Positions 3,558 through 45,880 of a stretch of DNA of 64,000 nt are shown one piece after another. The stretch is from positions 62,001 through 126,000 of the forward strand of contig NZ_JAKYXC010000010.1 of assembly GCF_022538185.1 (NCBI RefSeq). Reading direction: 5' to 3'. The stretch comes from Microbacterium sp. CFH 31415 (GTDB taxonomy: Bacteria > Actinomycetota > Actinomycetes > Actinomycetales > Microbacteriaceae). Under the pieces are notes generated by a model. That model did not search any database and was not told the origin of the DNA. It worked only from the letters and a program-made list of their open reading frames with translations. Each line of letters starts with the position of its first letter. The stretch's first letter is position 1. Position numbers and translations under genes: made by a program.

Positions 3558-4868
3558 TCACTCCTGCGGCTTGGTGCACGTGGTCTGCGCCGCGGTCTGT
3601 CCCGCGATGTCCGAAGGCAGGTCGACGCGCTCCTGGACGACGGGCGTGCCGGTCGGATCCGGCGTCGCGGTCGCGGCATCCGGTCCGCCCTCGTCACTCG
3701 GCGTCTCGGACGGCGTCGGCGTCTGCGGGACCGCTTCGCCGGTGACCTCGATGGCCAGACCCTGGCTGGACTCGCCGGTGAGGGTGAGGGGCTGGTTCGC
3801 CTGCAGGGCGCTGAACAGCACGTCGGCCGCCTCGGTGACCGGGTAGACCTGCACGCCGTCCCACGAGTAGGCCGTCGGATACTGGACGAACACGATGTCC
3901 TCGTAGGGCACATCCTTCGCCGCCATGGCGATCTGCACCATCAGCGTGGGGTTCGCGAGCGACTGGCTGAGCACGAGCTGCTTCTGCTGCACCTGGCTGA
4001 TCGCGGTCGTCGCGAGGGTGAACAGCACGCCCGGGTCGGCCAGCACCGCATCGGACTGCAGTTTGCGCACCATCGACGACATGAACTGCTGCTGGTTCGA
4101 GATGCGCCCGAGGTCGGAGCCATCGCCGATTCCGTGGCGCATGCGCAGGAACTGAAGAGCCTGCCGGCCCTCGAGCGTGTGGGTGCCCGCCGCGAGCGTC
4201 AGGCCGGTGTGCGGGTCGTGGACGTCGCCCGTGACGCACACGTCGACGCCTCCGATCGCATCCGACATGTTGATGACGCCCGCCCAGCGGATCGCCGCGG
4301 CGAAGTCGATCTTGTCGTGGATGAGCGATTCGACGGTGAGCGCGGTGCAGGCCAGTCCGCCATAGGTGTACGACACGTTGAGCTTCTGTGCGCTCATGGC
4401 CGGATAGGTGCCCGACCCGTCCTCGGTGGGGCAGGCCGGGATCGGCACCACCATGTCGCGAGGGAACGACACCACCGTGATGCGGCGCGGCTCGTCCGAG
4501 ATGTGCACGAGCAGGGTGACATCGTTGCGCTCGCCGTCGACGTCGCCGTTCTGGCAGGCCGCCGACAGGGCGGCGTTCTCTCCCTCGCACGAGTCCGTGC
4601 CGACCAGCAGCAGGTTCGCGCCGCCCTCGATGGCTCCGAGCGACGGGGGGATGGGCTCGTCCTCGCCGAGGACGACCGCGTTGGCGGAGAGCGAGTGCGC
4701 GGCATCCCACACGCTGAAGGCGGTGATGCTCGTGGCGCTCACTCCGATGACGGCGAGCGCGACGGCGAAGACGGCGAGGAAGGCGACGAGCGGATGCCGG
4801 TCCCGGTGCACCGCGTGGCGCGCGAGGGGGACGCGGCCCTCCTCCGAGGGTCGAGTGCCTGCGGGCAT
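3558..4868 (-). CDS. LytR-CpsA-Psr (LCP) family cell-wall glycopolymer ligase, first copy
   Basis: 436 residues: a short cytoplasmic N-terminus, one membrane segment (about residues 27-52) and an extracellular LCP domain. LCP enzymes transfer teichoic-acid-like or polysaccharide chains from undecaprenyl carriers to peptidoglycan. Family signatures seen are VVSFPRDMVVPIP, QKLNVSYTYGG, INMSDAIGGVDVCV and FLRMRHGIGDGSDLGRISNQ, which hold the Arg/Asp residues that bind pyrophosphate and Mg. The tail is Pro/Thr/Ser-rich. Its ATG overlaps the TGA of the upstream LCP gene (TGATG), so the two are translationally coupled. The second copy has the same architecture and probably arose by tandem duplication. 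Confidence 0.93.
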   Translation of the reverse strand: MPAGTRPSEEGRVPLARHAVHRDRHPLVAFLAVFAVALAVIGVSATSITAFSVWDAAHSLSANAVVLGEDEPIPPSLGAIEGGANLLLVGTDSCEGENAALSAACQNGDVDGERNDVTLLVHISDEPRRITVVSFPRDMVVPIPACPTEDGSGTYPAMSAQKLNVSYTYGGLACTALTVESLIHDKIDFAAAIRWAGVINMSDAIGGVDVCVTGDVHDPHTGLTLAAGTHTLEGRQALQFLRMRHGIGDGSDLGRISNQQQFMSSMVRKLQSDAVLADPGVLFTLATTAISQVQQKQLVLSQSLANPTLMVQIAMAAKDVPYEDIVFVQYPTAYSWDGVQVYPVTEAADVLFSALQANQPLTLTGESSQGLAIEVTGEAVPQTPTPSETPSDEGGPDAATATPDPTGTPVVQERVDLPSDIAGQTAAQTTCTKPQE

Positions 4869-6142
4869 CAGCCGTCGGCTCGCACGTTGCCTGCGGAGCA
4901 GGTGCGGTCAGCGGCGGAGGTTCCGGGGATCGAGTCCGGCAGGTCGACCGGAACCTCGGTAGCGCCGGGAGTCGGCGTCGTCGAGGGCGTGGCCGTGGTG
5001 GGCGTCTCGTCGGCGCCGGGCTCGACCGTGATCACGCCGCCGCCGAGGTTCGCGTCGTTGGTGACGTTGATCGGCTCGTTGGCCGCGAGCGCCGACCACA
5101 GCGCTTCGGCCGCCTGACGGTTGGGGATCACGCGGTTCTCGTCGTACGGGTCCTGGTCCACGGGGTACTGCACGAAGACGATCTCCTCGAACGGCACGTT
5201 CTTCACTGCGAGGGCGATCTGCACGAGGGTCATCGGATTGGCGAGCGACTCGCTCGGGGTGATGTTGTCAACGGCGGTCGTCGCCAGCTTGTAGAGCGTC
5301 GCGGGGTCGGACAGCACCTCTTCGCTCACGAGCTTGCGGGCGAGGCTCGACATGTACTGCTGCTGGTTGCTGATACGGGCGAGATCGCTGCCGTTCGCGA
5401 GCCCGTAGCGCGTGCGCAGGAACTGGAGCGCTTCGAGGCCCTGCACATTGCGCTCGCCGGCGGGCCAGTCGATGCCGGTGTTGCTGTCGCGGATGCCGCC
5501 GTTGCCGATGCACACGTCGACGCCGCCGATCGCGTCGGTGATGTTGATGACGTTGCCGAAGCTGACCTTGGCGGCGAACGGGATGCTGAGACCGCTGAGC
5601 TCGGAGATGGTCTTGTTCACGCACGACAGGCCGCCGTACGACCACGCGGTGTTGATCTGGTCGTTGGAGACCCCGCCTGTGACGGATCCGTCCTCGCTGG
5701 TGCACGACGGGATCGGGATCATGAGGTCGCGCGGGAACGAGATCACGGTGACGCGCCGCGGATCGTCGGAGATGTGCACCAGCATGTTGACGTCGTTGAG
5801 CTGGCCTTCGGAGTCGGCGCCGGTGCACCGCTCGCCGAAGTACTTCGCGTACTGCGGCTCGCACTCGTCAGTGCCGACGAGGAGCAGATTCACGCCCCCC
5901 TCGATCGCCCCGATGTCGGGCGGGACGTCTTCCTGGCCCTCGAGCGCCACCGCGTTCTCGGCGACGCTCCCCGTCAGGTCGGTGAGCGCGTAGGCGGCGA
6001 CACCGGCGGTGGAGACGAGGATGACGGCGACGACCACGCCGACCAGCTTCATGATCAGCGAGATGGGGTGAGGCGAGGTCAGCTCACCGTGCCGCGCGAC
6101 GGTGCGACGGCCACGCTTCGCGGGCTTGGTCGTCTCGGCCAC
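4868..6142 (-). CDS. LytR-CpsA-Psr (LCP) family cell-wall glycopolymer ligase, second copy
   Basis: 424 residues from a GTG at 6142, chosen because GAGAGGA lies 6 bases upstream; any longer reading would run into the tRNA gene. A basic cytoplasmic N-terminus is followed by a membrane helix (about residues 30-55) and an LCP domain with VISFPRDLMIPIP, DQINTAWSYGG, VINITDAIGGVDVCI and FLRTRYGLANGSDLARISNQ. It is transcribed first in a two-gene unit with the neighbouring LCP gene. The expected role is attachment of secondary wall polymers to peptidoglycan at the outer membrane face. Which polymer each copy handles cannot be told from sequence. Confidence 0.92.
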   Translation of the reverse strand: MAETTKPAKRGRRTVARHGELTSPHPISLIMKLVGVVVAVILVSTAGVAAYALTDLTGSVAENAVALEGQEDVPPDIGAIEGGVNLLLVGTDECEPQYAKYFGERCTGADSEGQLNDVNMLVHISDDPRRVTVISFPRDLMIPIPSCTSEDGSVTGGVSNDQINTAWSYGGLSCVNKTISELSGLSIPFAAKVSFGNVINITDAIGGVDVCIGNGGIRDSNTGIDWPAGERNVQGLEALQFLRTRYGLANGSDLARISNQQQYMSSLARKLVSEEVLSDPATLYKLATTAVDNITPSESLANPMTLVQIALAVKNVPFEEIVFVQYPVDQDPYDENRVIPNRQAAEALWSALAANEPINVTNDANLGGGVITVEPGADETPTTATPSTTPTPGATEVPVDLPDSIPGTSAADRTCSAGNVRADG

Positions 6143-10081: not shown

Positions 10082-10157
10082 GTCAAAGCGTCGGGAGATT
10101 CGGCCGCCTCGGTGCCGCGACTCGCCAGTCTCGTGCAGTTTCTCCCGACCGTTTGAC
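10082..10157. repeat. 76-bp palindromic element, copy A
   Basis: The left arm GTCAAAGCGTCGGGAGATTC and right arm GTTTCTCCCGACCGTTTGAC (reverse complement GTCAAACGGTCGGGAGAAAC) pair over most of 20 bp around a 36-base loop. Two other copies, at 41708 and 42737, have the same arms and exactly the same total length of 76 bp, but unrelated loops. This copy stands alone between the lipid kinase and photolyase genes. The rest of the 10018-10271 interval holds only the terminator hairpin and the photolyase promoter. Confidence 0.85.
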
Positions 10158-20290: not shown

Positions 20291-21694
20291 TCAGTCGGCG
20301 GCGCGGGCGCGTCGTCGGCCGAGCAGGCTGATCGCGACTCCGCCGGCGAGGAGCGCGGCCGCTCCGGCGACGAGGCCGGTCACCACGAGGGGGTCCTGGC
20401 CCGTGACGGCGAGTGCGCCCTCGCCGGCCGGGTCGGCCGGCGACTCACCCGCGACGACGCCCTCCTCCGTCGGGTCCGTCGGGTCCGTCGGGTCCGTCGG
20501 GTCCGTCGGGTCCGTCGGGTCCGTCGGGTCCGTCGGGTCCGTCGGGTCCGTCGGGTCCGTCGGGTCCGTCGGGTCCGTCGGGTCCGTCGGGTCACCGGGC
20601 ACCGTGCCCTCGAAGCCGTAGTGGTGCAGCTCGCCGCCGCCGCGCGAGGTGAACGACTTCACCAGCCACTGGCCATTGTGCGAGATGCCGGAGTCGAAGA
20701 CGACGTCGGCGTTCGGTGCGAAGACCGAGCCCAACTCGAGCCCGCTGACGGTGAGCATGCCGCTGACCTGCGACGCATCGATCATGATGTGGCGGGCGTA
20801 GCCCTGCTGAGCGCCGAGCTGCGCGCTCCATCCCTCGATGTTGATCCGTCCGATCGTCGTCGTCCCGGGCGCGACGCGGATGATGAGCGGCGCGTCGGCC
20901 GTCGGCACATAGCCGCCGGAGCGCTCCAGCTTGATGATGCGATCGGCGACGTCGGCGTAGTCGATCACGTTCGGGCGGTCGGTCGCGAACGACAGCGGGA
21001 AGACGAGACCGCCCTCGATCGTGAGCGGCACCTCGTGCACCGCGGTGGTGCCGTAGGCAGCGGCGAGAGCCTCCGCCGCGGCATCCGCTCCTGCCGCATC
21101 GATGTACGACGCCACAGGCGAGGCCGTGCGCACCGCATCGAGAGCGTCCGGCGCGTAGCGCACGGCGAGCAGGTCCATCCATCCGCCATCGGCATTGGTC
21201 AGCCGGGCGAAGTCGGCACCGGCCGCTGGGCCGACGCCACCGCTGCGGGCGCTGAGCTCGATGCCGGTGAGGTCTTCGAGCTTGGCCGACGCCGCGGCAT
21301 CCGCCTCCCCCGCGACTCCCCGGCTCGCGTTCGAGACCTGCACGTTGCCCTCGCCCGTGAACGCCTTCGCGAGGAGTCGCACCGGGACGCCGTCGATGAG
21401 CGGCACCGTGTAGCTGCCCTCGCTGGCCACGTCATGCCGCAGCGGGAAGTTGCCCGAGGTGCTCGAGACAGCTCCGAGCGCGGCGACGGATCCCTCGATC
21501 TCTCCGTTGCCGAGCGACGCGTCACCCAGCGAGACGACGGTGAAGCCGCCGTTCACCCCGAACGGATTGATGCTCGCCTCCGCCGCGATGGCTGCCGGAG
21601 CGGCGCCGAAGACGGCGCCCATCGCGAGCAGGCCGGCGAGCGCCGCCCCCGTCGCCGCTGCGCCGCGTCGACCGCGACCGCGCTTCACTGACAT
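20291..21694 (-). CDS. Sortase-anchored choice-of-anchor A surface protein
   Basis: 467 residues. Signal peptide of about 40 residues ending AAPAAIAA, then a choice-of-anchor A domain (begins NPFGVNGGFTVVSLGDAS; ends ELGSVFAPNADVVFDSG). Next come 14 exact Asp-Pro-Thr repeats as a wall-spanning stalk, an LAVTG sortase signal, a hydrophobic helix and a basic tail (GRRRARAAD). LAxTG is the class E sortase motif usual in actinobacteria, so covalent wall anchoring is expected. Adhesion is suggested by the family, but no ligand is known to me. Start ATG at 21694 chosen for the signal peptide. The 21695-21947 interval upstream shows no recognisable regulatory element or RNA. Confidence 0.88.
   Translation of the reverse strand: MSVKRGRGRRGAAATGAALAGLLAMGAVFGAAPAAIAAEASINPFGVNGGFTVVSLGDASLGNGEIEGSVAALGAVSSTSGNFPLRHDVASEGSYTVPLIDGVPVRLLAKAFTGEGNVQVSNASRGVAGEADAAASAKLEDLTGIELSARSGGVGPAAGADFARLTNADGGWMDLLAVRYAPDALDAVRTASPVASYIDAAGADAAAEALAAAYGTTAVHEVPLTIEGGLVFPLSFATDRPNVIDYADVADRIIKLERSGGYVPTADAPLIIRVAPGTTTIGRINIEGWSAQLGAQQGYARHIMIDASQVSGMLTVSGLELGSVFAPNADVVFDSGISHNGQWLVKSFTSRGGGELHHYGFEGTVPGDPTDPTDPTDPTDPTDPTDPTDPTDPTDPTDPTDPTDPTDPTEEGVVAGESPADPAGEGALAVTGQDPLVVTGLVAGAAALLAGGVAISLLGRRRARAAD
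20468..20593 (-). repeat. 9-bp coding minisatellite, 14 copies (DPT repeat)
   Basis: Fourteen perfectly identical 9-base units (GGGTCCGTC phase on the plus strand, GACCCGACG on the coding strand) encode (Asp-Pro-Thr)14 in the wall stalk. Identity even at third codon positions means recent expansion or homogenisation. Changes in copy number stay in frame, so stalk length can vary without loss of the protein. Confidence 0.95.
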
Positions 21695-24980: not shown

Positions 24981-25067
24981 GTGCACAACGTCGGCAGGTC
25001 GCGGGTCTCACCGGACGGCAGGCCCGCCGAAGCGCCGTGCCGGAGACGATGTGCCGACGTTGTGCGC
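24981..25067. repeat. GTGCACAACGTCGGCA palindromic element, copy 2
   Basis: GTGCACAACGTCGGCA at 24981-24996 is identical to the left arm of the 11642 copy, and TGCCGACGTTGTGCGC at 25052-25067 is its inverted partner (15 of 16). The loop is 55 bases here against 77 in copy 1. It lies between divergent pheA and pgm, so a pure terminator role is unlikely at this site. Confidence 0.75.
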
Positions 25068-29597: not shown

Positions 29598-29711
29598 CCG
29601 GGCCGGGCCGCCGTCACCGGCGACGACGGCTGACCGGGCGGCCGTCACCGGGCGACGGCTGACCCGGCGGCCGTCACCGGGCGACGGCTGACCCGGCGGC
29701 CGTCACCGGGC
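29586..29711. repeat. Tandem 29-bp hairpin-forming repeat between convergent genes
   Basis: Units start at 29625, 29654 and 29683 (29 bp each, the last two identical), preceded by a degenerate 39-bp unit at 29586. Each unit holds an inverted GACGGC...GCCGTC pair and so can fold by itself. The array starts within the last codons of the LacI gene and ends 17 bases from the convergent glycerate kinase stop, so a multi-hairpin bidirectional terminator is the simplest reading. Confidence 0.85.
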
Positions 29712-29728
29712 GGCAGCGCCCTCGGGCG

Positions 29729-30847
29729 TCAGCCGAGCGCTGCGGCGAGCGCCGCGCCCGCTTCGGTCAGCCAGTGAGCGGGCGAGGCCATGGCGGCGTC
29801 CGCCGACCCGGCGAGGTCGGTGAGCGACACCGTCGCCGCGAACGCCGAGACGTCGGCGTCGCCCGCGATGCGCCCGGCGACCAGTGCGACGGCGACCTCG
29901 GCCGCGTGGGCGACCGCCGCGACGTACGCGGGGGTCTTGCCCGCGGCGGATTGACCGTCGAACGATCCTTCGCCGGTGAGGACGACGGATGCCTCGCCCA
30001 CCGCGGACGTCAGTCCGATGAGCTCCGCGACCGCTGCCGCGCCGGGCACGAGCGTCGCTCGCCACGCGAGCAGCCCGAAGCCGGTGCCCCCTGCGGCGCC
30101 CGCGCCGGGCGTCGTGGGATCGGCGGGGAGCAGCTTGGCGAAGCGAGCGAGCTCGGCGTCGAGTTCCTGCACCTCGTCGGGCGACGCCCCCTTCTGCGGT
30201 CCGAACACCGCTGCCGCGCCCCAGGCACCGACGAGCGGATTGTCGACGTCGCTCAGCACGGTGACGCCGCCCGGCGGCAGCGGCCGAAGACCCGACAGGT
30301 CGGCCGAGACCAGGTCGGCCAGACCGCGCCCCCCGTCGGCGACCGGCCTGCCCGCAGCATCCGTGAATCTCGCACCGAGCGCGGAGAGCAGGCCCGTTCC
30401 CCCATCCGTCGACGCGCTCGACCCGATGCCGAGCACCAGCCGCGAGACGCCGTGGTCCAGCGCGGCGGCGACAGCCTCGCCGAAGCCGAGCGTGCCGGCG
30501 TCGAGCGGGCGCAGCCGCGCAGGCGTGCCGAGCAGTTCGATGCCGCTCGTCGAGGCCAGCTCGACCACACCGGTGCCGTTCGGCGCGTCGGATGTCGCGG
30601 GAAGAAGAAGCCACGTCGCCTCGACCAGTGTGCCCTCGGGCCCGGTCACTGTGGCCGGCTGCCGCTGCGCGCCGTCCACCGCCGTCGCGAAGGCGTCGAT
30701 CGTACCCTCGCCACCGTCCGCCATGGGCAGCAGGAGCAGCCGGTCGTGCGGCCGCACGCGCGCCCATCCCTCGCCGAGGCGGGCGGCCGCTTCGGCGGCC
30801 CCGACCGTGCCCTTGAAGGAGTCCGGGGCGATCACGACGGTGTGCAT
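29729..30847 (-). CDS. Glycerate kinase (GarK/GlxK family)
   Basis: 372 residues from the ATG at 30847. Family motifs: IAPDSFKGTVGAAEAA at the N-terminus, MADGGEGTIDAF, LGIGSSASTDGGTGLL, NPLVGAWGAAAVFGPQKGA and LTGEGSFDGQSAAGKTP. It phosphorylates glycerate to 2- or 3-phosphoglycerate, joining glyoxylate or sugar-acid degradation to glycolysis. It lies 47 bases downstream of the LacI gene at 30895 on the same strand and may be cotranscribed, though a pathway link with galactose is not obvious. Confidence 0.93.
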   Translation of the reverse strand: MHTVVIAPDSFKGTVGAAEAAARLGEGWARVRPHDRLLLLPMADGGEGTIDAFATAVDGAQRQPATVTGPEGTLVEATWLLLPATSDAPNGTGVVELASTSGIELLGTPARLRPLDAGTLGFGEAVAAALDHGVSRLVLGIGSSASTDGGTGLLSALGARFTDAAGRPVADGGRGLADLVSADLSGLRPLPPGGVTVLSDVDNPLVGAWGAAAVFGPQKGASPDEVQELDAELARFAKLLPADPTTPGAGAAGGTGFGLLAWRATLVPGAAAVAELIGLTSAVGEASVVLTGEGSFDGQSAAGKTPAYVAAVAHAAEVAVALVAGRIAGDADVSAFAATVSLTDLAGSADAAMASPAHWLTEAGAALAAALG

Positions 30848-39506: not shown

Positions 39507-40178
39507 ATGGCAGAAGGCCGCAAGGAACGCAGGGGTTCGTACGCGAAGGGCGTCGCCAAGCGCGAGGAGATCCTCGAGCGCGCACTCGATGTGATCGCGC
39601 GCGAGGGCTACCGAGGCGCCTCGATCAAGGAGCTCGCCGAAGAGGTGGGCCTGAGCCAGGCCGGTCTGCTGCACTACTTCGACAGCAAGGAGGAGCTCTT
39701 CACGGCGATCCTCCGCAAACGGGACGAGATCGACTCGGCCAACTTCGGCCTGGCTGACGATGACGGCCAGGTCGAGGGCGTCGACCTCCGTGAGGGCTAC
39801 CTCGGCGTGATCCGCCACAACGCCGACGTACCCGGGCTCGTCCAGCTGTTCGCGCGCCTGTCGGTCGACGCGAGCGATCCCGACCACGCAGCCCACGACT
39901 TCTTCATGGCACGCGGCAAGACGCTCCGAACCGCCTTCGCCGACGCGATCGCCGCGCAGCAGGCGGCGGGAGAGCTCACCGATCGCGTCGGTCCCGACAC
40001 CCTCGCCCGGATCTTCCAGGCCGTCGCCGACGGCCTCCAGGTGCAGTGGATGCTCGAACCCGATGTCGACATGGCCGGCACGATCGACGCCCTGTTCACC
40101 GCCCTCGCCACCCGCACAGCCGCGGGGCCGGATGCCGGCACCGACACGGAATCGAGGCGTCATGGCGCAGCATCCTGA
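39507..40178 (+). CDS. TetR-family repressor
   Basis: 223 residues. Helix-turn-helix IKELAEEVGLSQAGLLHYF in the N-terminal 60 residues, and a TetR C-terminal ligand domain ending in a low-complexity tail. Divergent from the MFS-GH3 unit, with the 25-bp palindrome between them, so a glucoside-responsive local repressor is inferred. Its last 17 bases overlap the start of the carboxylesterase gene. Confidence 0.9.
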   Translation: MAEGRKERRGSYAKGVAKREEILERALDVIAREGYRGASIKELAEEVGLSQAGLLHYFDSKEELFTAILRKRDEIDSANFGLADDDGQVEGVDLREGYLGVIRHNADVPGLVQLFARLSVDASDPDHAAHDFFMARGKTLRTAFADAIAAQQAAGELTDRVGPDTLARIFQAVADGLQVQWMLEPDVDMAGTIDALFTALATRTAAGPDAGTDTESRRHGAAS

Positions 40179-41673
40179 GCATCCCGTCGTCTCGATCACG
40201 TCGGGCGCCGTCCGCGGGTTCTGGCGTGGCGAGCCCGGTGCCCCCGGCGCATCGGCGGCATTCCTCGGCATCCCGTTCGCGCAGCCGCCCGTCGGGGAGC
40301 TGCGCTTCGCGGCGCCCGTTCCGCCGGAGCCATGGCAGGGAGTGCGTGACGCGCTCGAGTACGGCGCCACCGCGCAGCGCATCGACCCCGGCGACACCCT
40401 CATCCCCGAGCCGGCGATCCCGGGCGACTCGACGCTCAACGTGAACGTCTTCACGCCCGCGCCGGGCGGCGACGCGCGCCTGCCCGTGATGGTCTACATC
40501 CATGGCGGCGGATACGTCGCCGGATCGCCCGCGAGCCCCTGGTACGACGGCCGGTCGTTCAATCGCGACGGCGTCGTCACCGTCACGCTCTCGTACCGGC
40601 TCGGCTTCGACGGCTTCGGGCACATCCCGGGCGCCCCCTCCAACCGCGGGGTCCGCGACTGGCTCGCGGCGCTCGAATGGGTGCGCGACAACATCGCAGC
40701 CTTCGGCGGCGACCCGGCGCGCGTGACGATCGCCGGGCAGTCGGCGGGCGGCGGAGCCGTGCTGACACTGCTCGGGATGCCGGCATCCCAGCACCTGTTC
40801 CACTCGGCGTGGGCGATGTCGGCCGCGCTCGCCGACGTCGCACCCGAACGTGCGCGGACCCTGTCGGCCAAGCTCGCACACCTCGCAGGCGTCAGGCCGA
40901 ACCGCGACGGCTTCGCGTCCGTGCCCGAGGAGACGCTCCACGACCTGCAGCACGACGCCGCGACACCGGATTCGCGCGATCCTCTCGCCGCCGTGCATGA
41001 GATCCTCGACGACGGGCTCTCGTGGGGTCCGATGATCGACGGCGACCTGCTGACGCAGCCGACCGTCGCCGCGCTCGCGGCGGGCGTCGGCGCCGACAAG
41101 CCGCTGGTGCTCGGCACGACCGACGACGAGTTCACGATGGTGACCGACTCCGCCCGCGGCAAGCTGCGGCTCGTGCCCGCCTCGATCGCCCTCGGCAGAC
41201 TGAAGCTGCCGCGCGGCGCGCGGCGCGCCTACCTCGCGGCCAACGTCGCGCAGCGACGCAAGGGAACGGCGGCCGTCCTCGGCCGCTACGTCACCGACGT
41301 CGTCTTCCGCTCCGATGTCGTGCGCGTCGCCGAGGCGCGCGGCGACGCCCGGACGTGGGTGTACCGCTTCACGTGGGTCTCCCCTACGCGGGGGTGGGCG
41401 CTGCATTGCCTCGACGTGCCGTTCTGGTTCGACTGCCTCGACGCCGCCGGAGTGACTGCGCTCGCGGGCGACGCCCCGCCCCGCCGCCTCGCCGAGGCCG
41501 TCCACGGCGCCGCCGTCGGCCTCATCCGCGACGGCGACCCGGGGTGGCCGACCTGGACCGAGCAGCCGGGGGCGACCCGGATGTTCGGCGGCGAGGCATC
41601 CCGCCCCGACGTCGACGCCGACGGCTACCGCAGCGTGCGCTCGCTCGTCGCCGGTCCGACCGCCTGGGCCTGA
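40162..41673 (+). CDS. Carboxylesterase, type B
   Basis: 503 residues from the ATG at 40162. GFLGIPFAQPPVG-like N-terminus (AAFLGIPFAQPPVGELRF), oxyanion loop VYIHGGGYVAGS, nucleophile Ser in TIAGQSAGGGAVLTLLG, Glu/Asp around TTDDEFTMVTD and His near the C-terminus (WALHCLDVPFWF). No signal peptide. A broad-specificity esterase, perhaps removing acyl groups from imported glycosides. Overlaps tetR by 17 bases and is likely cotranscribed with it. Confidence 0.92.
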   Translation: MAQHPEHPVVSITSGAVRGFWRGEPGAPGASAAFLGIPFAQPPVGELRFAAPVPPEPWQGVRDALEYGATAQRIDPGDTLIPEPAIPGDSTLNVNVFTPAPGGDARLPVMVYIHGGGYVAGSPASPWYDGRSFNRDGVVTVTLSYRLGFDGFGHIPGAPSNRGVRDWLAALEWVRDNIAAFGGDPARVTIAGQSAGGGAVLTLLGMPASQHLFHSAWAMSAALADVAPERARTLSAKLAHLAGVRPNRDGFASVPEETLHDLQHDAATPDSRDPLAAVHEILDDGLSWGPMIDGDLLTQPTVAALAAGVGADKPLVLGTTDDEFTMVTDSARGKLRLVPASIALGRLKLPRGARRAYLAANVAQRRKGTAAVLGRYVTDVVFRSDVVRVAEARGDARTWVYRFTWVSPTRGWALHCLDVPFWFDCLDAAGVTALAGDAPPRRLAEAVHGAAVGLIRDGDPGWPTWTEQPGATRMFGGEASRPDVDADGYRSVRSLVAGPTAWA

Positions 41674-41707: not shown

Positions 41708-41783
41708 GTCAAACCGTCGGGACGACACGCCGTGCTGGGGGTCTTCACCGCCTCTGAGAGCCGAAATCTCCCGACGCTTCGAC
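41708..41783. repeat. 76-bp palindromic element, copy B
   Basis: Left arm GTCAAACCGTCGGGACGACA and right arm AAATCTCCCGACGCTTCGAC (reverse complement begins GTCGAAGCGTCGGGAGATTT). Pairing is weaker than in copies A and C, but the core GTCGGGA and total length 76 are kept. It ends 11 bases from the stop of the DUF559 gene. Confidence 0.75.
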
Positions 41784-41793
41784 CATCCACGTC

Positions 41794-42630
41794 CTATCGC
41801 GCCCGTCGATCGGTGCGGCTGCGGAGCAGACCGACCAGCGCCGCGCGCACCTCCTCCGGACGCCACATGATGTCTTCGGCGATCGGCCGGTACGTCGCAT
41901 ACCCCAGCGCAGCAGCGCGCTGATCACGGCGTCGATCGCGGCGCTGCGCGTCCCAGCTCGAGTGGTGCTCGAAGCTGTCGCACTCGACGATGAGCCAGCC
42001 GTCGACGACGAAGTCGACGCGGCCGACACCGGAGATGACCACCTGCACGTCGAAGTGCACTCCGAGAGACCTCAGGATCAGCCGCACCAGCGATTCAGGT
42101 CCTGACTCGCAACGCGCGTCGACGAGCCTGCGCACGACTGCGTAGCGTCCAGGGAGGGTCGCGAAGAGTTCCTCGAGCTCGTGCGTCGCAAGCAGGCCGA
42201 GGTGCAGCGCAGAGTCCAGGGTCGCGACCGCCCCTCGCGGCGGCTGGCACCTCACCGCCTCTCTGAGGGCATCGAAGACCTCCACGGCGAGAGACGCGGG
42301 GTGCGGCACCCGTCTCGGCCGTCCCCAGTGCCGCCGTACTCTGCGGCTCGGCTTCGGTGCGCGATCCCGCCCATCGTGGAGGTGAACGTGCAGCGAGTCG
42401 GCTGTGAGGACGAATACGCCGCGCCTCGCCAGCTCGGATACGCAGGTCAGCCGACCGCCGTGCGCGCACGCGTCGACCAAGTCGACGTGCGTTCCGGGAT
42501 CGAGGTACGCGTTGTCTCGCGGTTTCAGCAGCCGACCCTCGTCGACGGCGCGCCGGAGTCCGCGGTCGGTCCAACCGAGCTGGATGAGGTCGCTTCGGCG
42601 CATGGCCGTGTCGGGCGGAGGATTGAGCAC
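41794..42630 (-). CDS. DUF559 / AbiEi-type domain protein (nuclease-fold)
   Basis: 278 residues from a GTG at 42630 (269 from an ATG at 42603). Residues about 8-70 look like an AbiEi-type winged-helix domain (MRRSDLIQLGWTDRGLRRAV, RLLKPRDNAYLDPG). The C-terminus is DUF559, a PD-(D/E)XK/Vsr-like fold: E179 in SGPESLVR, D206 in GRVDFVVDG, E216 and D218 in LIVECDSFEHH, then RDRRRDQRAAALGYATYRP. The key acidic residues are present, so nuclease activity is possible. The role is unknown; some relatives are annotated as type IV antitoxin-like, but no toxin gene is adjacent. The gene is bracketed by two copies of the 76-bp palindrome, which suggests the two belong together. Confidence 0.82.
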   Translation of the reverse strand: MLNPPPDTAMRRSDLIQLGWTDRGLRRAVDEGRLLKPRDNAYLDPGTHVDLVDACAHGGRLTCVSELARRGVFVLTADSLHVHLHDGRDRAPKPSRRVRRHWGRPRRVPHPASLAVEVFDALREAVRCQPPRGAVATLDSALHLGLLATHELEELFATLPGRYAVVRRLVDARCESGPESLVRLILRSLGVHFDVQVVISGVGRVDFVVDGWLIVECDSFEHHSSWDAQRRDRRRDQRAAALGYATYRPIAEDIMWRPEEVRAALVGLLRSRTDRRAR

Positions 42631-42736
42631 ACGGCGACTGTGGCCGATCCGACGGTCGGCTATGCCTGCACCTCGTCGTCATGCGGAGGCCGTCCCAGCG
42701 CGTCCGCTTGGGGAGGAGGCATACCCTGACCGCGGC

Positions 42737-42812
42737 GTCAAACGGTCGGGAGAAACCGGGCCCAGAGGTGCGCACGCGCGCACGAACGCCCCGTTTCTCC
42801 CGACCGTTTGAC
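42737..42812. repeat. 76-bp palindromic element, copy C (perfect arms)
   Basis: GTCAAACGGTCGGGAGAAAC (42737-42756) and its exact reverse complement (42793-42812) around a 36-base loop. A perfect 20-bp inverted repeat, 106 bases upstream of the DUF559 start. The remaining interval to 42915 holds only the 22-bp tandem repeat. Confidence 0.95.
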
Positions 42813-43911: not shown

Positions 43912-44805
43912 CTACGAGGGCGGCCCTCCGTGGCGCACGACCGCGGCCCGCGGCATCCGCTGCCTCATCACGGCGATCGCGTCGGGGTTGTCGTCGACGA
44001 GCACCGCGTCGCGCCCGAGCGCAGAAGCCACGGCACCCGTGGTGCCGCTGCCCGCGAAGAAGTCCAGCACGCGATCGCCGGGGCGCGACGAGGCCTGCAC
44101 GATCCGGCGCAGCACACCTTCGGGCTTCTGCGTCGGGTAACCGGTCTTCTCCCGCCCGGTCGTCGGCACGATCGTGTGCCACCAGACGTCGGTCGGGAGC
44201 TTGCCGCGCGCGGCCTTCTCGGGCGTGACGAGGCCGGGCGCCATGTACGGCTCGCGATCGACGGCCTCGGAGTCGAACCAGTACCGGTCGGGATCCTTCA
44301 CGTACACGAGGATCGTGTCGTGCTTGGTGGGCCACCGCTTGCGCGTCTTCGCGCCGTAGTCGTAGGCCCAGATGAGCTCGTTGAGGAACTTGTCGCGGCC
44401 GACGAGCGCGTCGAGCAGCACCTTGGCGTAATGCGCCTCGCGATAGTCGAGGTGCAGGTACAGCGTGCCGTCCTCGGCGAGCAGCCGCCATGCCTCGATG
44501 AGCCGCGGCTCGAGGAAGCCCCAGTAGTCGTCGAACCGGTCGCCGTACGCGCGCAGGTCCCCGCGCAGCCGCTCGTAGTCGCGACCGTGGAAGCCCCGGC
44601 GCACGACCGCGTCGGCGGCACGGTCATGGCGCGGCGGGCGCGCCGTCTCGGTCGCGCGCTCCTGCCTGCGCCCGGTGTTGAACGGCGGGTCGAGGTACAC
44701 CAGCGTGAAGGAGCCGTCGGCGAATCCGCGGATGACGTCGAGGTTGTCCCCCACGTGGATCTCGACGGCTCCGGATGCCTCGGCCCCGGTCGCGGGCGCG
44801 CTCAC
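43912..44805 (-). CDS. Site-specific DNA methyltransferase, beta class (N4/N6)
   Basis: 297 residues from a GTG at 44805. Catalytic motif IV VYLDPPFNTG comes first, then HLDYREAHYAKVLLDAL, and the SAM-binding motif VLDFFAGSGTTGAVA near the C-terminus: the order of beta-class amino-methyltransferases. Methylates adenine N6 or cytosine N4 in DNA. No restriction endonuclease gene is adjacent, so it is an orphan, perhaps regulatory. The start is uncertain because the frame is open upstream. The target sequence cannot be predicted from this sequence. Confidence 0.9.
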   Translation of the reverse strand: MSAPATGAEASGAVEIHVGDNLDVIRGFADGSFTLVYLDPPFNTGRRQERATETARPPRHDRAADAVVRRGFHGRDYERLRGDLRAYGDRFDDYWGFLEPRLIEAWRLLAEDGTLYLHLDYREAHYAKVLLDALVGRDKFLNELIWAYDYGAKTRKRWPTKHDTILVYVKDPDRYWFDSEAVDREPYMAPGLVTPEKAARGKLPTDVWWHTIVPTTGREKTGYPTQKPEGVLRRIVQASSRPGDRVLDFFAGSGTTGAVASALGRDAVLVDDNPDAIAVMRQRMPRAAVVRHGGPPS

Positions 44806-44830
44806 GGTCGCCCTGCCTCGGTCAGGTGCG

Positions 44831-45880
44831 TCACGGCACCCGGCGAAGCCAGGCGTCGGTGGCGAACTTCGACTCGACGAGCGCCTCGGCCTCGGCGTAT
44901 TCCTCTTCGGTGATACTTCCCGGGACGGCACCGTAGAGCTTGGCGAACGTCTCCTTGAAACGCTCGATGATCGCCTCTCGCGGCAGCCCGGTCTGGCGGC
45001 GCAGCGGGTCGACGCGCTTCGCGGCCGACGTCGTGCCCTTGTCGCTGAGCTTCTCGCGGCCGATGCGCAGCACCTCGGTCATCACCCGGCCGTCCATGTC
45101 GTAGCTCAGCGTCGCATGGTGCAGCACACCGCCGTTCGCCAGGCGCTTCTGCGCCGCCCCGCCGATCTTGCCCTGCGGCGACGCGATGTCGTTGAGCGGC
45201 TGATAGGTGGCCTCGATTCCGAGCGAGCGCAGAGCCTGCAGCACCCAGTCGTCGAGGAACGCGTACGAGTCGGCGAAGGTCAGTCCGGCGACGAGGGATG
45301 CCGGCACGTACAGCGAGTAGGTCACGATCGAGTTCGCGGCCATGAGCATCGCGCCCCCGCCCGAGATGCGGCGCACGACGTCGAACCCGTGCCGCTCGGC
45401 GCCGTCGGGGTCGACTTCGTTGCGCAGCGACTGGAACGACCCGATCACGACGGCCGACTCATCCCACTCCCACAGCCGCAAGGTCGGGCGACGGCGGCCG
45501 TCGCCGACGCGGCCGGTGAGCACCTCGTCGAGCGCGAGGTTCATGCGCGGTGAAACGGGCTTCTCGTGCACGATCTCCCAGTCGAAGTCGCGCCAGCCCG
45601 GTGCCGTCACCAGCGCGCGGCGGACCGCGGTGCCGACCGCCTCGGGAGTGAAGCCGAGCAGCTGCGCACCTTCGGGGAGGGCCGCGCGCACGGCGCCGGC
45701 GATCGTCGTGACGTCGGCTTCGACCGGCAGGCCGTTGACCGCGGCGTCTATGTCGTCGAGGGCGGAGTCGGGCTCGAGGAAGAAGTCGCCGGCGAGGTGG
45801 AAGTCGGCGATGCGGCCGTCGCGCTCCTCGAGGTCGACGACGACCAGCTTGCCTCCGGGCACCTTGTATTCGCCGTGCAT
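44831..45880 (-). CDS. Lipoate-protein ligase, domain-permuted
   Basis: 349 residues. The first 90 or so (YKVPGGKLVVVDLEERDGRI, GDFFLEPD) resemble the small accessory domain that is C-terminal in E. coli LplA. The catalytic domain follows: EKPVSPRMNLALDEVL, VVIGSFQSLRNEVD, VRRISGGGAMLM and DIASPQGKIGGAAQKRL with the lipoyl-lysine pocket. It attaches lipoate to 2-oxoacid dehydrogenase or GcvH domains. TAGGCT 7 bases before the ATG suggests a leaderless start. The order accessory-then-catalytic is the reverse of classical LplA. Confidence 0.9.
   Translation of the reverse strand: MHGEYKVPGGKLVVVDLEERDGRIADFHLAGDFFLEPDSALDDIDAAVNGLPVEADVTTIAGAVRAALPEGAQLLGFTPEAVGTAVRRALVTAPGWRDFDWEIVHEKPVSPRMNLALDEVLTGRVGDGRRRPTLRLWEWDESAVVIGSFQSLRNEVDPDGAERHGFDVVRRISGGGAMLMAANSIVTYSLYVPASLVAGLTFADSYAFLDDWVLQALRSLGIEATYQPLNDIASPQGKIGGAAQKRLANGGVLHHATLSYDMDGRVMTEVLRIGREKLSDKGTTSAAKRVDPLRRQTGLPREAIIERFKETFAKLYGAVPGSITEEEYAEAEALVESKFATDAWLRRVP

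Follow-up and report, generated by a model that had tools for sequence, protein, structure and literature searches.

Dedicated enzymes for palindromic repeats are known in the form of HUH tyrosine transposases. For one of the two REP super-families described in a 2013 survey, no dedicated enzyme was reported found (PMC3733652). AbiEi, the antitoxin of the type IV toxin-antitoxin system AbiE, is described as binding two inverted repeats of its promoter, TGTTGCTTTTA-N27-TAAAAGCAACA (PMC3985639), and a DUF559 protein of Caulobacter has been likened to Vsr and described as a possible mismatch-repair enzyme (PMC12907096). In the openly licensed papers searched, we found no link between DUF559 and palindromes of the kind described here.

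The window, by which we mean the whole stretch of 64,000 nucleotides that was analysed, covers C15:62001-126000 of the source genome (G000, 3.46 Mb). The initial annotation had placed a DUF559-type gene between two 76-bp palindromes, and this was confirmed: copies B (41708-41783) and C (42737-42812) flank the gene at 41794-42630. Its distance of 106 bases between start codon and copy C was borne out, the stop codon lies 10 rather than 11 bases from copy B, and the further copy that it had located at 10082 is copy A. The features concerned are as follows.

10082..10157, no strand: copy A of the 76-bp inverted repeat, dispersed; the genes on either side are in tandem (naive gene calls)
40063..41673, + strand: carboxylesterase (PF00135), neighbour on one side of the junction (Pfam E 4.1e-77)
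41708..41783, no strand: 76-bp inverted repeat, copy B, past the gene, 10 bases from its stop codon
41794..42630, - strand: gene for a predicted AbiEi-like + Vsr/DUF559 nuclease, 278 aa (ORF, Pfam, structure model)
41797..42114, - strand: gene part for residues 173-278, predicted Vsr / I-Bth0305I nuclease fold (structure matches, invariant residues)
42118..42630, - strand: gene part for residues 1-171, predicted AbiEi antitoxin fold (match to 6y8q_A)
42737..42812, no strand: 76-bp inverted repeat, copy C, ahead of the gene, 106 bases from its start codon
42916..43902, - strand: luciferase-like monooxygenase (PF00296; LLM), neighbour on the other side of the junction (Pfam E 9.1e-48)
43912-44931: N6/N4 DNA methylase (PF01555), two genes from the nuclease gene (Pfam E 6.2e-41)

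The window protein and the 76-bp palindrome

The window protein scored 22.4 bits against DUF559 (PF04480), above the curated cut-off of 20.6, 35.3 bits against MTES_1575 (PF18741), under the curated cut-off of 38.2 (E 1.2e-8), and 16.2 bits against AbiEi_4, under the cut-off of 25. Pfam matches with E values up to 1 were limited to MTES_1575, DUF559, a weak AbiEi_4 and a weak DUF3489, and the Y1 family was absent. The AlphaFold model of the 278-aa protein (pLDDT 92.8), whose fold was also compared with Foldseek, matched the AbiEi antitoxin 6y8q_A over residues 1-171 (Z 8.5, rmsd 4.4, 163 residues) and, over residues ~173-274, I-Bth0305I (3r3p_A, Z 14.0), ngo0050 (3hrl, Z 13.8) and Vsr (1cw0_A, Z 12.2); along the chain, AbiEi and Vsr types gave the best fold matches. 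As modelled, the protein would join an AbiEi antitoxin fold to a Vsr/I-Bth0305I nuclease fold, with residues 1-171 probably being the half that reads the palindrome. The residues E179, D206, E216 and D218, annotated from the start as intact and nuclease-like, were invariant in 45/45 aligned relatives, as was H223, and the gene probably encodes a DNA-cutting enzyme. It is one among six PF18741 and five PF04480 matches, which overlap, in the source genome. No AbiEii toxin operon was present at the window locus, where the six neighbour genes are, by Pfam, those for the esterase, the luciferase-like protein, the methylase, a lipoate ligase, an MFS protein and a TetR protein.

The source genome contains 12 copies of the 76-bp kind, 11 of them detected by arm match (at most 3 mismatches) and the other being copy B; three lie in the window and, apart from the bracketing pair, 10 are dispersed. 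A covariance model built from the 12 copies found them again and added only two weak places (E 0.03-0.04), which were excluded from the count. Eleven elements are 76 bp long and one is 75 bp; their arms, of ~16-20 nt, are conserved, and the middle varies from copy to copy. The 20-nt arm is present at 10138-10157 (-), 42737-42756 (+) and 42793-42812 (-), against an expectation of 0 (100 shuffles). All 12 elements have arms starting with GT, and CGTC stands at either end in 9/12, with ~7 expected (an estimate, taking C or G at 35% each); no GTAG tag was found on the arms of the 12 elements. The naive gene caller placed 11/12 elements between genes and one within a called ORF, and among 58 elements it placed 34 between tandem, 5 between divergent and 9 between convergent gene pairs, with 9 within an ORF and 1 unplaced. 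The dispersed copy of the 76-bp kind at C21:88883-88958 of the source genome (L243 4384-4459) lies within a predicted ORF of this caller.

Copy C folds strongly (z -9.1) and copy A less so (z -3.1). Copy B is degenerate and folds no better than shuffles (z -0.9, with 41/200 shuffles equally good); its arms agree with the family, and it scored 59.5 bits, copy B being itself part of the model used. The window gave no Rfam match at gathering scores, and viral_contigs contained no exact arm match. In a collection of one genome per species, the arm pattern retrieved three full elements in M. gallinarum, together with partnerless single arms in M. rhizomatis and four unrelated genomes. Other repeats in the window include a run of a 9-bp unit, TCCGTCGGG, at 20466-20600, about four repeats of a 29-bp unit at 29624-29739, and two neighbouring stretches, 3877-4304 and 5163-5578, which are 70-76% alike and are perhaps tandem paralogous genes.

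We compared the source genome with a near relative of the same genus (G105). Eight of the 10 dispersed copies, copy A included, and both bracketing copies, B and C, occupy shared sites in the two genomes. Over ten such pairs, identity was 89 and 88% in the arms, 68% in the middle and 67% in the adjoining 50 bp, and gap openings numbered 2 in 759 element bases versus 22 in 1520 flank bases. In-register pairing of the middles of 35 elements of the first family was 0.344, versus 0.342 after shuffling, and 9/35 middles folded better than z -1.5. Arm sequence and arm spacing are retained, the middle being less constrained, which fits two protein sites at a set distance more than a long RNA stem. 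The palindrome of G401, from another family of the order, pairs nearly up to its centre, and a cruciform or hairpin form is therefore possible there. The remaining two dispersed copies are missing in G105, but these are not clean 76-bp absences, and the comparison yielded no clean empty site for a single palindrome. One weak match in G105, at C6:1254949, was dropped after the arm scan gave no confirmation. Target-site duplications were absent in 10/12 elements and measured 3 and 4 nt in the other two. With 8/10 dispersed copies at the same sites, movement would be slow or past.

DUF559 genes are often bracketed by matched inverted repeats

A covariance model trained on the source genome detected palindromes at E 1e-4 in 16/247 Microbacterium genomes, 13 of which are among the 30 genomes with the closest relatives of the gene, where ~2 would be expected. 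Since such a model is biased to close relatives, we ran a bracket test without it, looking on each side of the gene, within 600 bp, for an inverted repeat with a span of 60-110 and at least 13/16 outer bases, the arms being alike. Counts are quoted for arms alike at 14/16 or more. At this threshold, 65/115 DUF559-type loci were bracketed: 16/30 among the closest relatives, 26/38 paralogs (2/40 loci, cut by a contig end, were lost), 14/29 in the order set, taken without the window gene, and 10/19 in the class set. A repeated locus was left out of the total, in which one gene still occurs twice (L133 and L197, neither passing). DUF559 genes of this type are, in short, often bracketed by matched inverted repeats.

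None of the random loci of the same genomes (0/20), neighbouring LLM genes (0/28, two of the 30 loci being too short) or dinucleotide shuffles (0/291) passed at 14/16 or more. Thirty other fetched loci contained 147 called genes of 500-1500 bp; two of these passed, and both are DUF559 genes: one belongs to G095, from a locus fetched for its palindromes, and the other, previously unseen, proved to be a DUF559 gene 90% identical to one in the source genome. At 13/16 or more, 6/147 genes, 1/28 LLM loci and 3/204 shuffles passed; at 12/16 or more, 1/20 random loci, 10/204 shuffles, 2/28 LLM loci and 20/147 genes did so, and it is for these last matches that counts are given at 14/16. The initial annotation had likened the layout to that of REP/RAYT systems, with a gene flanked by its own palindromes. 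These figures support that likeness and the enrichment of palindromes at DUF559 genes, with 65/115 loci bracketed and zero in the random, LLM and shuffle controls. We regard the partnership of the gene with the palindromes as nearly certain.

Among the 50 unbracketed loci, 19 had a palindrome downstream only, 9 upstream only and 17 on neither side. The upstream palindrome, measured from the match edge, lies at a median distance of 157 bp (quartiles 141-184). The bracket test is demanding: L109 fails it, though the covariance model finds palindromes on both of its sides. For loci L038-L067, nuclease-domain edges had been used in place of gene edges, and these loci (1/30 at 12/16 or more) were excluded from the counts on account of incorrect gene ends; the DUF559-like genes of the source genome at C11:124.9k, C8:304.7k and C6:105.6k were likewise tested with nuclease-domain edges only. 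In E. coli one DUF559 gene was checked, ycjD, and it has no bracket. Some loci show further arrangements. Four alike palindromes of ~100 bp stand in a row beside one DUF559 gene at L172 (G057:C1:3315730-3319554), three alike palindromes of ~100 bp lie around another at L146 (G155:C4:377207-381019), and a DUF559 gene from another family of the order (L224, G018) is flanked by 72-bp palindromes that are near perfect to the centre.

We then considered the junction between the esterase and LLM genes. Of the 30 closest DUF559 loci, that of the window among them, 12 adjoin the esterase and 10 the LLM gene. All 12 loci with the esterase neighbour, again with that of the window, have at least one covariance-model match at E 0.01 or better; palindromes are therefore present at the same junction in relatives, with changed arms. 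Neither of the two outcomes that the initial annotation had named as refuting its proposal was thus observed. Conversely, the 30 LLM loci comprise 4 with an adjoining DUF559 gene, 16 with an adjacent esterase and no DUF559 gene, and 10 with no esterase in the fetched flank. The DUF559-less esterase/LLM junctions L268, L269, L275 and L283 show that such sites can hold other strong inverted repeats, of 54-77 bp, one of them with AACTCC-type arms as at other DUF559 genes. The presence or absence of the gene at the junction thus differs between species. The suggestion of the initial annotation that the unit is mobile gains indirect support from the occupied and empty junctions and from the genome-specific dispersed copies, and runs against the absence of target-site duplications already mentioned.

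The PF01555 methylase gene occurs at 14/16 DUF559-less junctions and at 3/4 occupied ones, and across the 30 closest DUF559 loci and the 40 loci of paralogs its presence was limited to 7 flanks, all of them at this junction or from close relatives. At L109 and L110 it directly adjoins the DUF559 gene. The methylase travels with the LLM gene and was therefore left out of the system.

Gene-specific arms and dispersed palindrome families

In the source genome, four kinds of palindrome accompany four DUF559 genes. Beside the paralogs these are ACAACGTCGGCA (85-89 bp, at C14:231k), CGCAACATCGGAGATC (80-84 bp, at C8:191k) and ACAGGTGTTCTGGCGA (65-66 bp, at C1:94k). The proposal that the palindromes partner DUF559 genes holds in the sense that each gene has its own; the 76-bp kind itself, found near the window gene only, was rejected as the common partner of these genes, because the three other resolvable genes carry palindromes of their own.

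The two palindromes of a pair are alike in span, agreeing within 2 bp in 28/65 cases, as compared with 9.3 for re-dealt partners (maximum 19 in 1000). Arm similarity rises with protein similarity (Mantel, 0/999 permutations, 69 loci, uncorrected for shared descent). Partial r values with arm similarity were 0.29 and 0.34 for the AbiEi-like half given the nuclease, and 0.08 for the nuclease given the N-terminal part. Across the sequences compared, then, each gene has arms of its own, and these vary together with the protein.

Copies of these repeats also occur scattered over the genome in which the gene resides, at an arm spacing that hardly varies. A second family, of the ACAACGTCGGCA kind, has 5 copies in the source genome, 2 bracketing its gene and 3 dispersed. 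Elsewhere it has 7 copies in G012, 8 each in G035 and G201, 4 in G077, 1 in G105 and 0 in four other genomes, and the reversed pattern gave 0 matches throughout. These matches measure 81-83 bp between the pattern ends, with the exceptions of 93 and 94 bp, both in G201. One dispersed member of this family, GCACAACGTCGGCA ... TGCCGACGTTGTGC (83 bp), lies within the window at 24983-25065 (C15:86983-87065 of the source genome), its gene being the paralog at C14:231k. In G401, a search pattern taken from the copy beside its DUF559 gene, with the spacing left unset, recovered 12 two-arm elements, 10 dispersed and 2 bracketing, with arm starts all exactly 50 bp apart, and one lone arm; the same pattern retrieved nothing in nine congeners.

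We also compared the arms of dispersed elements of the 76-bp type with the flanks of the genes in 12 genomes, excluding four gene-adjacent elements from the dispersed set. The arms matched the flanks of their own genome's gene at a mean of 14.0/16 and those of the others at 10.7. The own genome's flanks were best or tied for 23/34 dispersed elements, and those of another genome were better for 11/34. Copy numbers, in the families and genomes counted, range from 1 to 12 per family and genome.

Readings of the system and its relation to known ones

We lean towards a two-part system, gene and palindromes, which would work like a REP/RAYT unit with an unrelated enzyme. The AbiEi-like halves of two protein molecules would bind the two arms, and binding by two molecules would set the distance from arm to arm. 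The Vsr-type half would nick or cut at the bound palindrome, and repair would copy the palindrome, or the whole palindrome-gene-palindrome unit, to new intergenic sites; such copying would keep the arms alike inside one genome. The upstream copy may double as operator of the gene. How the palindrome is read is suggested by the binding of AbiEi to two inverted promoter repeats, and recognition by the AbiEi-like half appears very probable from the sequence comparisons. Whether the nuclease spreads or maintains the copies is a question on which we are evenly divided. Several observations speak against the two-part system: 10/12 elements lack a target-site duplication, the two absences in G105 are not clean, copy numbers are low, eight of the ten dispersed copies share their sites with G105, 50/115 loci failed the bracket test (17 of them with no palindrome at all), 11/34 dispersed elements resembled the flanks of another genome more closely, and the Mantel permutations are uncorrected for descent.

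Several other readings have to be weighed against this two-part system. The protein could be a DNA-binding autoregulator only, with the palindromes as operators, the dispersed copies as a small regulon or decoys, and the nuclease acting elsewhere. This is unlikely. In its favour, AbiEi is described as binding paired inverted repeats ahead of its own operon (PMC3985639), the distance of the upstream copy varies rather little (median 157 bp), and the arm sequence tracks the AbiEi-like half. However, a copy beyond the stop codon is no less regular a feature, a palindrome downstream only being found at 19, and upstream only at 9, of the 50 unbracketed loci; 5/58 elements lie between divergent genes (naive caller), and the acidic nuclease residues are invariant. 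It is improbable that the system serves defence or repair, the nuclease attacking foreign or mismatched DNA, perhaps with a methylase, while the palindromes mark or absorb it. The PF01555 methylase gene, two genes away, would suit this function, and Vsr-type enzymes are reported to be sometimes linked to methylases (PMC12907096), but here the methylase belongs to the LLM neighbourhood, being present at 14/16 junctions without a DUF559 gene, PADLOC matches are weak (best E 0.011), and viral_contigs lack an exact arm match.

Slightly less probable still are RNA hairpins or transcription terminators that lie between genes by chance. The elements are mostly intergenic and often just past stop codons, copy C has a strong fold, 9/35 middles fold better than z -1.5, and the G401 palindrome pairs nearly to its centre; on the other hand, the middles pair about as much as after shuffling (0.344 vs 0.342), copy B has no fold, Rfam gave no match in the window at gathering scores, each gene and genome has its own arms at an almost constant spacing, and LLM genes show no brackets (0/28). 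Chance or a bias of the test can be practically dismissed. Weak inverted repeats abound in high-G+C DNA, and some controls pass at 13/16 or more (6/147 genes, 1/28 LLM loci, 3/204 shuffles), but at 14/16 or more only two of the 147 genes do, both DUF559, and LLM loci (0/28), random loci (0/20) and shuffles (0/291) do not; the G401 result is likewise hard to reconcile with chance.

With about even confidence, we would propose the palindrome-bracketed genes as an unrecognised actinobacterial class, in which a Vsr enzyme, similar to homing endonucleases, with an AbiEi reading head has its own flanking palindromes and seeds private families, an independent counterpart of REP/RAYT with gene-specific arms and spacing. 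Such a layout would provide a large set of DUF559 genes of unknown function with a definite role, and the system would offer dozens of natural enzyme-target pairs with recognition readable from the genome.

Among known families, the C-terminal domain of the window protein belongs with DUF559 / MTES_1575 (Pfam). Its modelled fold (residues ~173-274) is that of Vsr (Z 12.2) and of the EDxHD homing endonuclease I-Bth0305I (Z 14.0), and its invariant acidic residues may correspond to theirs, although here the nuclease is encoded by a freestanding chromosomal gene linked to palindromes. AbiEi is similar in the fold of residues 1-171, a wHTH plus C-terminal domain (Z 8.5); in contrast with AbiE, there is no adjacent toxin gene, a nuclease is fused, and the repeats lie on both sides of the gene and are dispersed. 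Unlike MITEs or TIR transposons, 10/12 elements lack a target-site duplication. TIRtrons, described as tyrosine transposase genes with inverted-repeat flanks, some forming families, also have flanking repeats that are dispersed (PMC3733652), but their enzyme is unlike this one, and here the unit on either side is an inverted repeat in its own right.

The closest likeness in layout is to the REP/REPIN-RAYT systems, or REPtrons, such as those of Pseudomonas, Stenotrophomonas and E. coli, in which, as described, an enzyme gene is flanked by short palindromes, dispersed copies are extragenic, each repeat class is tied to its cognate gene and species, and the distance between two inverted 16-mers is conserved (PMC3116915, PMC3686654, PMC3733652). 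The differences are that RAYT is an HUH tyrosine transposase whereas the enzyme here combines, as predicted, an AbiEi fold with a Vsr-type nuclease; that REP copies number tens to hundreds per genome, against 1-12 here for each family in the genomes counted; and that spacing and arms here vary from gene to gene. The enzyme being unrelated, the system is not a RAYT: an unrelated kind of nuclease would stand in the REP/RAYT layout, which was seen across one bacterial order and, in a single case, in a second order belonging to that taxonomic class.
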